DNA from: Synechococcus sp. BSA11S
GTDB taxonomy: Bacteria; Cyanobacteriota; Cyanobacteriia; PCC-6307; Cyanobiaceae
Assembly (NCBI RefSeq): GCF_014224355.1
Contig: NZ_VNWP01000004.1
Location: 124,001-188,000 of the forward strand
Direction: 5' to 3'
DNA: 64,000 nucleotides
This document shows positions 5,646 to 11,574 of this stretch, one piece after another. The position numbers and the translations under genes are program-made. Each line of letters opens with the position of its first letter. Position 1 is the first letter of the stretch. The notes under the pieces were generated by a model. That model worked only from the letters and a program-made list of their open reading frames with translations, was not told the DNA's origin and did no database searches.

Positions 5646-6299
5646 ATGGCCCCTGAGGACTCCCGCGTCGCCCTGCCCTTCTCGGAGGCCTGCGAACGCA
5701 ACAGGGAACCGATCCTGATGGCCCTGCGTCAGTGGCTTGAGGAAGACGGCCGGGTGCTTGAGGTGGGCTCCGGCACTGGCCAGCACGCCGTACACATGAG
5801 TCGCCATCTGCGGGTGGTGTGGCAGCCCAGCGACCGGGCCATCAACCTGGGAGATCTGCATCGCCGCTGCCAGCTCGAGGGCCAGGCCAAAGGCAGCCTG
5901 GGCTGGCTGCTTCCGCCTGTCGAGCTCGATGTGCTCCAGCCACTCTGGCCTGAAGGACCCTTCAACGCGGTGTTCAGCGCCAACACGGCCCACATCATGC
6001 CCTGGAGCGCTGTGCCGAGGTTGCTGGAGGGCAGCGCCCAGGTGCTGCAGGACGCAGGCCTGCTGCTTCTCTACGGTCCATTCCACGACGGCGGCCGTCA
6101 CACCAGTCCGAGCAACGCCGCTTTCGATCAGCACCTGCGCAGCCTTGATCCCGCCATGGGGGTGCGTGATGTCCTGGAGATCACCGACCTGGCCGCCAGC
6201 TGCGGGCTGCAGGCCATCGACGACCTGCCCATGCCCGCCAACAACCGGCTGCTGGTGTTCCGCCGGGAGCCTGCCGCGGAGGCTGAGCCCCAGCCATGA
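5646..6299 (+). CDS. DUF938 family class I SAM-dependent methyltransferase
   Basis: A 217-residue Rossmann-fold protein. The SAM-binding motif VLEVGSGTGQHAVH follows a family-specific opening (PFSEACERNREPIL). Later motifs FSANTAHIMPW, LLLLYGPFH and the ending NNRLLVFRR match DUF938. The substrate is unknown. It begins 8 bases after trpA and overlaps feoB by 4 bases, so trpA, this gene and feoB are probably one transcript. Confidence 0.88.
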   Translation: MAPEDSRVALPFSEACERNREPILMALRQWLEEDGRVLEVGSGTGQHAVHMSRHLRVVWQPSDRAINLGDLHRRCQLEGQAKGSLGWLLPPVELDVLQPLWPEGPFNAVFSANTAHIMPWSAVPRLLEGSAQVLQDAGLLLLYGPFHDGGRHTSPSNAAFDQHLRSLDPAMGVRDVLEITDLAASCGLQAIDDLPMPANNRLLVFRREPAAEAEPQP

Positions 6300-8104
6300 C
6301 CGCCGCCGCTGCGGTGCAGGTGGCCTTGCTGGGACTGCCCAACACCGGCAAGTCGACGCTTTACAACAGGCTCACCGGCGGCCACGCCCGTGTGGCGAAC
6401 TGGCCTGGACTCACGGTGGAGCTGCTGCGTGGTTCCCTGCCCGCCGACGCGTCCGGCAGGCCCTATGAGCTGATCGACCTGCCCGGCATCCACGACCTTC
6501 ACGGCAGCAGTGAGGATGAAGCGATCGTGCGCCGCTTTCTCAGCGCGACCCGTCCGGATCTGGCCGTGGTCGTGCTCAATGCCAGCCGCAGCGACACCCA
6601 GCTGAGGCTGGCTCTGGAGCTGGAAGCCACCGGGCTGCCCATGATCCTGGCGCTGAACATGGGCGATGAAGCCCAACGCTTCGGGGTGCGGATCGACCAC
6701 CAGCGGCTGGCGGAGGCCCTGGGGCTGCCGGTGCTGGTGCTCAGCGCCCGCCAGGGCCAGGGCCTCGATGAACTGCTGGAGCACATCCACGGCTTCACGG
6801 AGCTGCACCCAGCTCCGACCCGCCTGCTGCCTGACAAGGAGCTGGAGGAGCGCCAGGCCCGGCTGGTGGCTGGCTGCATCCAGGGGCACGACCAACCCCA
6901 CGCGGATCCCCAACGGGACCGCCTTGATCGGGTCTTGCTGCATCCGCTGCTTGGGCTGCTCAGCTTTTTCGTGGTGATGCTGGCGGTGTTCCAGCTGATC
7001 TATGCCGTGGGCGGACCGATCCAGGTCTGGCTGGGGGGCCTGTTCGATGGCCTGCAGGCCCGGCTGCTCCAACCGGCCCTGCAGAGCCTGGACCTGCCTG
7101 AGTTCCTCAGCCGGCTGATCAGCGAAGGTCTGTGGATGGGCGCCACCACGGTGATCAGCTTCATGCCGATCATTTTTTTGTTTTACCTGATGATCGCCCT
7201 GATCGAAGATTCGGGCTATCTGGCGCGCTCGGCTTTTCTGATGGATGGGGTGATGCATTGGCTGGGCCTCGACGGCCGCAGCTTCGTGCTGCAGATCATG
7301 GGCTTCGGCTGCAACGTGCCCGCGATCATGGGCACCCGGGTGATTCGCGAGAGGCCCCAGCGCTGGCTGGCGATGCTGATGATTCCCTTTTCACTCTGCC
7401 AGGCCAGGCTGGCGGTGTTCGTGTTCATGGCCGGCGCCTTCTTCCCAAGGCCCTGGTGGGCGGCCGGGCTGGTGATCTTCGGGTTCTACGTGGTCAGCTT
7501 CGCGGCCGCGGTTCTCACCGCCCTGCTGTTCAAACGGGTGTTTCCCAGCCAGGGCGGATTCGTGCTGGAGTTGCCTCCCTACCGTTTTCCCAGCCTCGTC
7601 ACGGTGTTCAGCCGCGGCTGGCGGGAAATGGTGACGTTCTTCTTCACCACCCGCCGCTTCATCGTCCTCGGGGTGATCAGCATCTGGCTGCTCAACAACC
7701 TTCCCCCTGGTGTGGACAACCTTTCCGGCCAGTCGCTGGCCGGCCAGATCGGGCGGTTGGTGCAACCATTCCTGGGTCCGATCGGCATGAACCCCGAGCT
7801 GACGATTTCGCTGATCTTCGGCTTCATCGCCAAGGAAATCCTGCTGGGGGCCATGGCCGTGATCTACGCCACCCGCGAGAGTGAACTGGCCATGGCGGTC
7901 GTGGGGGCCATCCGCCCGCTTCAGGCCCTCAGCTTCATGATGTTCACGCTGCTGTACACCCCCTGCCTCTCCACGGTCGCTGTGCAGCTGAGGGAAAGCC
8001 GAAGTGGCCGATTTGTGGCGCTCTCGCTGGTGTGGTCGTTCAGCCTGGCCTGGCTGATGGCGTTTCTTCTCTACCAGGCGGGTCTGGGGCTTGGTCTGGG
8101 CTGA
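6296..8104 (+). CDS. feoB: Ferrous iron transport protein B
   Basis: A 602-residue inner-membrane Fe(II) transporter with an N-terminal G domain. Visible motifs are G1 [11 protein letters not shown]3 DLPGIHDL and G4 NMGD, followed by a linker and about nine hydrophobic segments containing the Gate repeats ([13 protein letters not shown] and the second-half [10 protein letters not shown]). It is shorter than enterobacterial FeoB, as is common in cyanobacteria. It starts inside the methyltransferase stop (ATGA). The last 65 bases overlap feoA, which runs the other way. Confidence 0.96.
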
Positions 8105-8324
8105 GCAGCACGGCTTCCATCTGGGCGGCATCCTGACGGCGCAGCATGAAATCAAGCAGCCCCATGCGCAGGTGCAGAAGGCCTCCTGGCCGGCCCCGGC
8201 GCATCACCACCAGGCGGCAGCCAGGCTTGACGCCCATGGCCCGCAGACGAGCCTCCAGGCTGGAGCAGGCGGGGAGGGTGAGCAGCTCCAGCGGCTGATC
8301 GAGTGGCGCGGCGGCCAGGGTCAT
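8040..8324 (-). CDS. feoA: FeoA-domain protein
   Basis: A 94-residue protein with the SH3-like FeoA fold: LELLTLPACSSLEARLRAMG, then VKPGCRLVVMRRGRPGGLLHLRMG and LLDFMLRRQDA. FeoA supports FeoB-mediated Fe(II) uptake. The Met at 8324 gives a normal FeoA length; the longer frame to 8414 adds unrelated residues. It is placed tail-to-tail with feoB, whereas the common order is feoA upstream of feoB on the same strand. Its last 22 codons are antisense to the end of feoB. Confidence 0.9.
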   Translation of the reverse strand: MTLAAAPLDQPLELLTLPACSSLEARLRAMGVKPGCRLVVMRRGRPGGLLHLRMGLLDFMLRRQDAAQMEAVLLSPDQAPDPPGREETPSARPG

Positions 8325-8364
8325 CTCCTGATTCAGGCCCTTCTGAACTTGTACAGCCCCGCCA

Positions 8365-8481
8365 TCAAAGACCTGTGTGCACCAGAAGCTCACCCAGGGT
8401 GGCCGTGAGAGCACCGAGCAGGAGCAGGCGGGTGGTGCCCCCCAGCAGGCGGGAGCAGATCAGGAAGCGAATCGGTATCAA
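8365..8481 (-). CDS. Possible 38-residue membrane micro-protein upstream of feoA
   Basis: A TTG-started frame of 38 codons just upstream of feoA on the same strand. A good ribosome-binding sequence (AGGAG at 8494-8490) sits 8 bases before the start. The product has a basic N-terminus and a hydrophobic run (LLLLGALTATLGELLV) that could form one transmembrane helix. It ends 40 bases before feoA. The evidence is position, Shine-Dalgarno spacing and composition; I recognise no family and it may not be expressed. Confidence 0.35.
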   Translation of the reverse strand: MIPIRFLICSRLLGGTTRLLLLGALTATLGELLVHTGL

Positions 8482-9716: not shown

Positions 9717-9950
9717 TCAGTCTGGCGGTTGCTCGGCTGCAAGGGCACGCACGTAGCGGCGGTAGAGATCCTGTGGAGATCGGTAGCGCTGGGGCAGGGA
9801 ACTGTGCAGCGCGTTCAGGTTGTGCCAGCAGAGGGTGCGCTCGATGCGCTCCAGGGTGCGCCCATCGGCCACGAGGCGGCGCAGGGCCTGGCAGTAGGCC
9901 GAGAAGCCAGCCTCCAGTTCACCGATGCTGAGCGGGCGTGAGTCGGCCAT
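9717..9950 (-). CDS. Small conserved cyanobacterial protein, paralogue of 2502-2741
   Basis: A 77-residue protein starting MADSRPLSIGELEAG. It shares about 26 of 64 positions with the protein encoded at 2502-2741, including GELEA, YC, RT, CW, ALH/TLH and SLP/CLP, so both belong to one small family (possibly DUF3136, from memory only). The longer frame to 10067 is not similar upstream of this Met. It probably shares a transcript with the cytochrome downstream. Function unknown. Confidence 0.8.
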   Translation of the reverse strand: MADSRPLSIGELEAGFSAYCQALRRLVADGRTLERIERTLCWHNLNALHSSLPQRYRSPQDLYRRYVRALAAEQPPD

Positions 9951-10117
9951 GGCGATCCCTGGCGCGCCCCGTGCGGGCACGGGCAGGCGCTGAACCTGAT
10001 TCCACGGTATGCAGCGCTCGCCTGGGGGCCTGGGCTCTGCCCATGGCCCGCCAGAAAGTTGTCTCAAAACGTTGGGCTGCCCCGATACCCTCCCAGCATC
10101 CAGCCCGGGGCCTGCCG

Positions 10118-10597
10118 ATGCACAGCCTGCGACCCCTCACCCCCCATGACCTCGAGCCGGTGCGTGAGGTCTATCGCGACGCCGTGCTCAGCCAGGCGCC
10201 GCTGCTCTACACACCCGAGCAGGTGAAGGCCTGGGCGGATGTGGTGCTCGAAAGCTCCCCGTTCGAGACCATCCTGGAGCGGGGGGTTGGCCTGGCCAGC
10301 TGCTCCGGCGCCGGTGCCGTGATCGAGGCCTTCGCCGTGCTGGAGCCCGCCGATCGCATCTCGCTGCTCTACTGCCGCGGACGGGCCAGTCGCCAGGGCC
10401 GGGCCACTGCGCTGCTGCGGGCCCTGGAATCACTGGCGCGGGGGTTTGGCAGCCGACAATTGCGCACCGAAGCCAGCTTCCTTTCCCGTCCTCTGTTCGA
10501 GCGGGAGGGCTGGTCGGTGGACTGGACCGAGGAGCTCACGATCGGGTCAGTGCCCTTCCGCCGTTTCCGTATGGTCAAGGACCTGCCCCCCGACTGA
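10118..10597 (+). CDS. GNAT-family N-acetyltransferase
   Basis: A 159-residue protein with the GNAT layout: an opening SLRPLTPHDLEPVREVYRDA, a central pair of strands (IEAFAVLEPADRISLLYC) and the acetyl-CoA loop RGRASRQGRATALLRALE, where R/Q-x-x-G-x-A/G is expected. The ending (FEREGWSVDWTEEL) is the usual C-terminal strand. The acceptor substrate is unknown. The longer frame from 9938 is rejected because the added residues are compositionally odd and overlap the promoter region of the divergent small gene. Confidence 0.85.
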   Translation: MHSLRPLTPHDLEPVREVYRDAVLSQAPLLYTPEQVKAWADVVLESSPFETILERGVGLASCSGAGAVIEAFAVLEPADRISLLYCRGRASRQGRATALLRALESLARGFGSRQLRTEASFLSRPLFEREGWSVDWTEELTIGSVPFRRFRMVKDLPPD

Positions 10598-10607
10598 CCG
10601 CGCAGCC

Positions 10608-11192
10608 ATGGCCGAGGAGCAGCTGCAGGTCTTTCTGGAGAAAGTGCTCCAGCTCAATGCCTTCATCGCCCTCAGCGAGGCCCGGCCTGAACTGCGCCAG
10701 GCCCTGAGGGCGTGCTCCAGCCACCAGGAGGTGGTGTCCCTGGCCCGGGCGCAGGGCTATGAAATCGGCAGGCGCTGGGGTGAACCTGCCGCCGGCGCCG
10801 AGCGCAAGGATGGGTTGGGAAACCTGCTCGAGAGCCCTTGCCCCCCATCGGGCGAGGAGCGGGTGGATGTGCTGCTGGACGACTCAGGTCTGCGCCTGGA
10901 GCGCATTCACTCCTGCTCCCACAGCACCAGAGCCGGCCATTGGTACGACCAGCTGGAATCCGAATGGATCCTGCTGCTTCGTGGCAGTGCCAGGTTGCAG
11001 TTCGAGGATGAGGAAGAAGCCCGCGATTTGGTGGCCGGAGACAGCCTACTGATCGCCCCCCGGCGCCGCCACAGGGTGGTGGCTACAGATCCGGCTCCCG
11101 GAACACTTTGGTTCGCCCTCTTCTGGACACCTTCCCCATCAGTGTGGAAGAGCGCACCAGCCAGTAGCCCGCCGACAGGCTCACCACCGTGA
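10608..11192 (+). CDS. Nif11-domain and cupin-domain fusion protein
   Basis: A 194-residue protein with two recognisable parts. Residues 1 to about 65 match the Nif11 family (MAEEQLQVFLEKVLQLN, ALRACSSHQEVVSLARAQGY, EIG), known both as a nitrogen-fixation-locus protein and as the leader of many cyanobacterial RiPP precursors. Residues about 85-180 form a single cupin (RLERIHSCSHSTRAGHWYDQ, WILLLRGSARLQFEDE, LVAGDSLLIAPRRRHRV). There is no Gly-Gly leader cleavage site followed by a short core, so it does not look like a RiPP precursor. Its last 110 bases run antisense to psiE. It follows the GNAT gene by 10 bases. Confidence 0.8.
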   Translation: MAEEQLQVFLEKVLQLNAFIALSEARPELRQALRACSSHQEVVSLARAQGYEIGRRWGEPAAGAERKDGLGNLLESPCPPSGEERVDVLLDDSGLRLERIHSCSHSTRAGHWYDQLESEWILLLRGSARLQFEDEEEARDLVAGDSLLIAPRRRHRVVATDPAPGTLWFALFWTPSPSVWKSAPASSPPTGSPP

Positions 11193-11574
11193 CCCCCAGT
11201 CCGACCAGCAGAAGAGGTTTGTCCTCCGCCCCCGGCTGAAGCACGATCACCTTCCGCGCCACGGCGGTGAGGGCCGTGAGCAGCACCAGCTCGATCTGCA
11301 CCACATGGTGTCGCAGGTAGGCCGTGACGTTCTGAAGCACCTCAAGGGCGATCAGCACGGTGAGCACATCCCCGAGGATCCCCATGAGATCGTTCCCGAG
11401 CCAGCCGGTGCTGGGGTTGAAGAATTCCTGCCAGACCCGAAGGAACAGCTGGGCCGAGGCGGCGATCAGCACCACGCAGAGCAGAGCTGAGAGCGCCTTG
11501 GCCAGTTGACGCTCGAAGCGATCGACGAGGGCCAGGAACGTCTCGTCGTCGAAAAGGCCGGACAACCTGCTCAT
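11083..11574 (-). CDS. PsiE-family membrane protein
   Basis: A 163-residue protein with four predicted transmembrane segments (ALSALLCVVLIAASAQLFL, LGDVLTVLIALEVLQ, VQIELVLLTALTAVA, LLVGLGVTVVSLSAGYWLV) and the family stretch ALEVLQNVTAYLRHHVVQIE. It matches phosphate-starvation-inducible PsiE-like proteins, whose function is unknown. Its start overlaps the upstream stop by one base (TGATG), so it is translated with the upstream secreted protein. No Pho box was recognised. Confidence 0.85.
   Translation of the reverse strand: MSRLSGLFDDETFLALVDRFERQLAKALSALLCVVLIAASAQLFLRVWQEFFNPSTGWLGNDLMGILGDVLTVLIALEVLQNVTAYLRHHVVQIELVLLTALTAVARKVIVLQPGAEDKPLLLVGLGVTVVSLSAGYWLVRSSTLMGKVSRRGRTKVFREPDL

Follow-up and report, generated by a model that had tools for sequence, protein, structure and literature searches.

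Nif11 proteins are often taken as the leaders of modified peptides. In the N11P precursors of RiPPs captured by the TIGR03798 model, among them the prochlorosins, a passage of Haft and colleagues (PMC2887384) gives motif 2 of the family as ELSDEELEAVAGG, a GG-type motif. Other Nif11 domains recognized by Pfam are small proteins, such as the stand-alone family ending in PGEYN. The arrangement closest to the gene described here, a Nif11 domain followed by a cupin, is already known as the named family TIGR03890 (nif11_cupin, titled 'Nif11 domain/cupin domain-containing protein'), a hypothetical equivalog whose name gives no function. In the part of PMC10783134 that touches on them, Nif11/cupin loci are grouped with RiPP clusters, together with a putative epimerase, and a passage of PMC9723758 reports a Nif11-domain transcript that was more abundant in field Synechococcus when iron was added, from a gene that may differ from nif11_cupin. 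The cupin part has its closest solved structure in Reut_A1446 (PDB 2opk), a stand-alone cupin whose PDB entry names it a putative isomerase. Neither TIGR03890 nor Reut_A1446 was found mentioned by name in the open-licence literature searched, and no description was found there of a Nif11 half retained alone, of its single-copy spread, or of its distinctive residues.

The gene lies in a window of 64,000 nucleotides from Synechococcus sp. BSA11S, the whole stretch of DNA that was analysed. An intact reading frame of 194 codons runs on the plus strand from an ATG at 10608 to a stop codon at 11190–11192. Its 194-residue product (P0001) matches TIGR03890 over residues 2–173 and model positions 1–171 of 171 with 246.2 bits against a cut-off of 159.45, and its whole architecture is identical to that of the family. 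The first-pass annotation had seen one protein with a Nif11 N-terminal half and a cupin; this observation is right and its architecture already named, because TIGR03890 matches as stated and Pfam Nif11 (PF07862) matches residues 1–57 with 53.1 bits, above the gathering cut-off of 23.8, which settles the profile check that the annotation had proposed. A mechanical list of open reading frames carries the frame further, to a TTG at 10446. A start codon stands at the position matching 10608 in all 20 fetched full-length loci (17 of them ATG) and in all 64 named full-length loci (57 ATG). A frame error joining two genes, named by the annotation as what would refute it, is excluded, since full-length genes without internal stops are present in all nine genomes of the source genus and, in the family sample of 151 genomes, 90 score above the TIGR03890 cut-off. 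The search across genomes for the same architecture had likewise been suggested, and those 90 genomes with a full-length relative are part of its outcome.

The protein divides into four parts, all encoded on the plus strand. Residues 1–59 (10608–10784) constitute the Nif11 domain, residues 60–70 (10785–10817) a variable linker with 12% mean identity and a pLDDT of about 53 (residues 61–70), and residues 71–173 (10818–11126) the cupin domain. The TIGR03890 model stops at residue 173, before a poorly conserved tail of residues 174–194 (11127–11189; 16% mean identity) that lies over the 3' end of a convergent psiE-family gene. The tail coded in this overlap is shorter in some relatives, such as L017. 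AlphaFold predicts the whole protein with a mean pLDDT of 89.7, a confident barrel and a pTM of 0.60; the two domains look independent in this model because the linker is predicted to be flexible and the pTM is 0.60. As read from sequence and predicted structure, the protein consists of a derived three-helix Nif11 module and a complete cupin of the stand-alone type, with a flexible linker between them.

A comparison of this Nif11 half with other Nif11 domains sets it apart. It is predicted to form a three-helix bundle, with helices at residues 3–25, 27–35 and 39–48, and Foldseek found no solved relative of this fold; a VIA-align comparison covered two chains only. Ten residues, F9, K12, L16, C36, H39, G50, I53, R56, W57 and G58, are invariant in all 136 distinct sequences (105 fused and 31 Nif11-only), and they hold likewise when only the 69 of these sequences retrieved without a sequence pattern are counted. 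Among the fused proteins, mean identity is 62% in the Nif11 half and 54% in the cupin. The comparison set comprised 37 other Nif11 domains, eight from the source genome (three of them below the Pfam cut-off) plus 29 that came from loci in a class sample of 59 genomes. The likeness to the small Pfam Nif11 proteins lies in Nif11 homology across residues 1–57, while within this comparison the nif11_cupin form alone carries a 10-residue insert in helix 1 (positions 14–23), H39 and the R56-W57-G58 run. The insert is absent from all 37, H39 and the Arg-Trp-Gly run occur in none, and a residue equivalent to C36 is aligned in one (L250). By sequence, then, the Nif11 half is a derived Nif11 form marked by its insert and by invariant Cys36, His39 and Arg56-Trp57-Gly58. 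A second stand-alone Nif11 family of about 71 residues is present in the source genome (L002; G000, contig C12, 11803–11943) and in 10 of the 29 fetched Nif11 loci (L250, L256, L258, L261–L266 and L268). Its proteins end in PGEY followed by N, S or H (the end is altered in L264) and lack a core peptide; the start and end described for group F in a passage of PMC10783134 resemble those of this family.

The cupin half belongs to the cupin superfamily, as an alignment of residues 71–171 with 2opk (E 4e-14) and a Foldseek search with the AlphaFold model (nearest to 2opk, E 1.2e-11, 34% identity, rmsd 1.7) both indicate. Pfam Cupin_2 matches residues 114–166 of the whole protein with 26.0 bits, below its 27.2 cut-off, and reaches 27.3 bits when residues 71–194 are given alone. 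The two cupins have a common WYD...EW...HRV pattern, while 2opk has, in the alignment, a Ser where the nif11_cupin protein has Gln115. Pocket residues are nearly fixed among the 105 fused sequences (W112 in 105, Q115 in 103, E119 in 104, H155 in 103), and with this conservation, at 54% mean identity, the cupin is under selection where it is present. The classical metal-cupin motif, which we take to be HxH(x3-4)E with a histidine in the second motif, presumably falls on residues 113, 115, 119 and 155. Its HxH pair is missing because position 113 is mostly Tyr or Met (Y 77, M 14 and H 1 of 105) and position 115 is Gln, while E119 and H155 are kept. The annotation had called this a complete single cupin; a single cupin at about residues 71–173 it is, but 113 and 115 are not His as a rule, and, judged by its residues, canonical metal binding should not be assumed. 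In one genome (G280; L071/L043), a full-length protein has Q115, E119 and H155 replaced by S, L and Y and W168 by R, and retains the ten invariant Nif11 positions.

The two halves differ strongly in their distribution. In a phylum sample of 386 genomes, TIGR03890 matches 98. Thirty-five of these exceed its cut-off, all in the family of the source organism, 23 further genomes of this family match at the Nif11 half (one of them, G177, also with 22 bits in the cupin region), and in 40 genomes outside the family the match is confined to the cupin half or its surroundings. With a model restricted to the Nif11 half, 58 of the 386 genomes match, the identical 58 of that family. Each has one strong copy, and G296 and G380 each show an additional match of about 29 bits. 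Thirty-five of the 58 have the cupin and 23 the Nif11 half alone, as a protein of about 60 residues. No genome of the family in the phylum sample appears to lack the Nif11 half, since the non-matching genomes listed begin with other families. In the family sample of 151 genomes, many of them incomplete, 90 carry the full form above the cut-off, 38 the Nif11 half only (one of these, G441, may be merely cut off), one a degenerate form that is full-length but below the cut-off (G427), and 22 have no match; the cupin half alone occurs in none of the 151. Five genomes of one genus in this sample (g148; G398, G439, G456, G473 and G487), 95–99% complete, match neither half.

Among the best 80 of 127 confirmed loci, 64 are full-length and 16 Nif11-only. 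The 16 all bear Prochlorococcus in their record titles, and the fusion is retained in at least 11 Prochlorococcus-titled records within the same 80, including MIT 0701. The 31 distinct Nif11-only proteins are 59–66 residues long and end 0–7 residues past the RWG-E/D sequence (E59). TIGR03890 scores such Prochlorococcus relatives at 65–91 bits, below its cut-off (five tested), and a Nif11-only protein is predicted to fold by itself (pLDDT 88.5). Two scans of viral_contigs returned 13 and four pattern matches, and no relative carried by phage was confirmed. Across these genomes, the Nif11 module appears as a single-copy gene of picocyanobacteria that is retained alone where no such cupin is found. 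This distribution suggests a lasting Nif11 core to which the cupin is an optional addition.

In other families, the cupin stands alone in all 20 loci fetched, drawn from the 40 genomes with such a match. Most of these cupins start with an N-L-F-like stretch resembling the sequence after the linker of the fusion, and no Nif11 profile match was found in the 20 loci within flanks of 6 kb or less. By sequence, the fusion therefore looks as though a whole cupin gene had been attached downstream of a Nif11 gene.

Probable traces of cupin loss are seen at the site of the fusion. Among 20 loci retrieved because they matched at the Nif11 half only or looked degenerate, three sit at the fusion's place, surrounded by YCII, cytochrome c, o11909 and sigma factor genes; the remaining 17 lie elsewhere, at several different places. 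Two of the three (L090 and L095) have no cupin, and the third (L096, from G427) is full-length with a decayed one. The cupin of L096 scores 49.7 bits, compared with 151.2 on average and 87.5 at the lowest in the 105 full-length proteins, and its Q115, E119 and H155 are all replaced. Its Nif11 half is intact at 85.1 bits (fused mean 101.7, minimum 85.6; Nif11-only mean 87.0). L096 is likely an intermediate of cupin loss. No cupin remnant was detected by the cupin profile, in three forward frames over 1.1–2.5 kb, behind the 16 named Nif11-only copies. These include L136, probably the copy of G424, where the family search had run to model position 103 across seven stops; the candidate remnant there was not recognized by the cupin profile.

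On a tree of rpoB, rpoC1 and rpoC2 from 52 genomes, the Nif11-only state requires five changes, two of them forced by well-supported branches, a count that rests partly on incomplete single-cell genomes. An AU test, run on a quick tree that used no mixture model, rejects a single Nif11-only clade (p 0.004). When only genomes at least 90% complete are considered (14 Nif11-only and 23 full), two changes suffice. The tree of the Nif11 half, poorly resolved with its 59 residues in 62 columns, too few for resolution, places 30 of 31 Nif11-only sequences together, needs two changes, and sets this group next to the fused Prochlorococcus forms L054 and L055. This gene tree fits loss from a fused ancestor but does not fit many losses. 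The two trees are read as at least two cupin losses. What the present analysis adds to the named family is this polarity: on the sequence record, the Nif11 half persists and the cupin is kept in only part of the genomes.

The surroundings of the full-length gene form a stable neighbourhood. Within 6 kb of the fusion at 21 loci, o11909 and cytochrome c genes occur at 21 each, and PsiE, DUF1232, sigma factor and YCII genes at 20 each. In the window, the convergent psiE-family gene (11083–11574, minus strand; Pfam PsiE 106 bits) and the Nif11-cupin gene overlap at their 3' ends by 110 bases (11083–11192). Upstream, a GNAT-like acetyltransferase gene (9938–10597, plus strand; Acetyltransf_10 22.7 bits, below its 23.6 cut-off) ends 10 bases before the start codon. 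It is a possible operon partner in part of the family only, because it lies upstream at 10 of the 21 full-length loci. Farther upstream, feoB (plus strand, in the 6296–8414 region) is accompanied by a convergent feoA (minus strand) that overlaps it at the feoA 3' end, both above their Pfam cut-offs.

Neighbouring genes gave no lead to the function of either part. The 60 largest clusters of neighbouring reading frames contain no stand-alone cupin loci, with two exceptions (the gene's own cluster and one stray locus), and the Nif11-only copies are scattered over several different places. A role in a defence system found no backing, as PADLOC matched neither the Nif11-cupin gene nor two neighbours. 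NtcA boxes, taken here to be GTAN8TAC, were not in excess in the 200 bases upstream, which speaks against nitrogen control; they occur at none of 21 full-length loci (0.54 expected), none of 20 Nif11-only loci (1.1) and one of 19 cupin-only loci (0.89), the expectations being drawn from shuffles that preserve single-base content only.

The annotation had proposed a folded enzyme carrying a leader-like docking module. A folded two-domain protein is what the prediction gives, and the Nif11 half may well bind a partner; the picture of a cupin enzyme with a leader as its tag finds no support in genomes in which the Nif11 half persists in 58 of 58 and the cupin in 35. In RiPP terms, that proposal makes the Nif11 half a docking domain akin to a RiPP leader, with the cupin recruited to a RiPP modification complex as a tailoring enzyme or an odd substrate; it draws on the Nif11 homology itself and on TIGR03798, which scores the window protein at 32.3 bits, exactly at its 32.3 cut-off, and one Prochlorococcus copy at 33.0. 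It also draws on a peptidase C39 domain in the source genome (L278; G000, contig C26, 3197–3595; 124 bits, within a 732-residue frame; a second one is marginal), which leans towards leader processing somewhere in the source cell and whose protein is, by sequence, perhaps a leader-cleaving ABC transporter. The TIGR03798 match covers only positions 5–43 of 68, the Nif11 core that the protein has in common with N11P precursors, and the other seven of eight further members fall below the cut-off. In contrast to those precursors, as far as the passage of Haft and colleagues describes them, the nif11_cupin protein has no motif 2 of the ELSDEELEAVAGG type and no core peptide; W57-G58-E59 gives way to the variable linker and a folded cupin, and the Nif11-only proteins stop at most seven residues past the domain. 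The insert and the invariant Cys, His and Arg-Trp-Gly residues also set it apart from leader-type Nif11. The absence of a modification enzyme nearby, as first reported, extends for LanC and YcaO to the whole source genome, where no LANC_like or YcaO match was found at E <= 0.01, leaving it without a recognized LanM/LanC or YcaO modifying enzyme. The scanned neighbours are not RiPP genes, and no epimerase was recognized among the 16 neighbouring proteins scanned. We regard this docking role as very improbable. Since in its relatives the Nif11 part would be the lasting core and the cupin optional, the Nif11-cupin protein is probably not a peptide-antibiotic leader.

The weight could instead lie on the cupin as the key enzyme or sensor, with a Nif11 half that only stabilises or oligomerises it and a leftover Nif11 protein drifting in Prochlorococcus. 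The conservation of the cupin, its near-invariant Gln-Glu-His pocket and its occurrence alone in other cyanobacteria speak for such a role, but drift sits poorly with ten invariant residues kept in all 31 distinct Nif11-only sequences and with the fold predicted for one such protein, and the full-length L043 keeps the ten Nif11 positions without the pocket Q, E and H; we consider this distinctly unlikely. The Nif11 half might also use Cys36-x2-His39 to bind a metal, a cofactor or a thiol, the cupin adding a second binding site. C36 and H39 are present in 136 of 136 sequences, while the 37 other Nif11 domains have H39 in none and C36 in one, and ferrous-iron transport genes lie 2–4 kb upstream in the window. 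Each chain, however, offers a single conserved Cys and a single conserved His, so binding there would call for a dimer or further ligands, and feo genes are present at just 5 of the 21 full-length loci. This, too, we rate as unlikely.

The reading preferred here, to which we give about an even chance, is that of a ligand-tuned, non-RiPP adaptor in which the Nif11 module is the working part and the cupin a dispensable accessory. Cys36/His39 and the Arg-Trp-Gly end would be the means by which the Nif11 module binds its partner, which would be a protein or possibly a metal or thiol ligand. As an accessory domain, the cupin would hold a small molecule in its Gln-Glu-His pocket and adjust or dimerise the Nif11 module. 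The whole protein would act as a ligand-tuned adaptor and not as a leader with a core peptide. We infer the working role of the Nif11 half from its retention alone. A fuller account of the family, which we hold more tentatively and somewhat short of an even chance, is that the Nif11 protein with Cys36-x2-His39 and Arg-Trp-Gly belongs to the single-copy core of picocyanobacteria and has a non-RiPP function of its own, perhaps metal- or thiol-dependent, and that it acquired the cupin a single time, from a stand-alone gene, and shed it more than once towards streamlined Prochlorococcus.

For the naming of such genes, this has a practical consequence. The nif11_cupin form lacks the main features by which Nif11 proteins are taken as modified-peptide leaders, and the short Prochlorococcus copies risk being named RiPP precursors on score alone, as one of the five Nif11-only proteins tested passed TIGR03798. 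A Nif11 form that survives alone in the small genomes of Prochlorococcus offers a handle on the roles of Nif11 proteins outside RiPP pathways.
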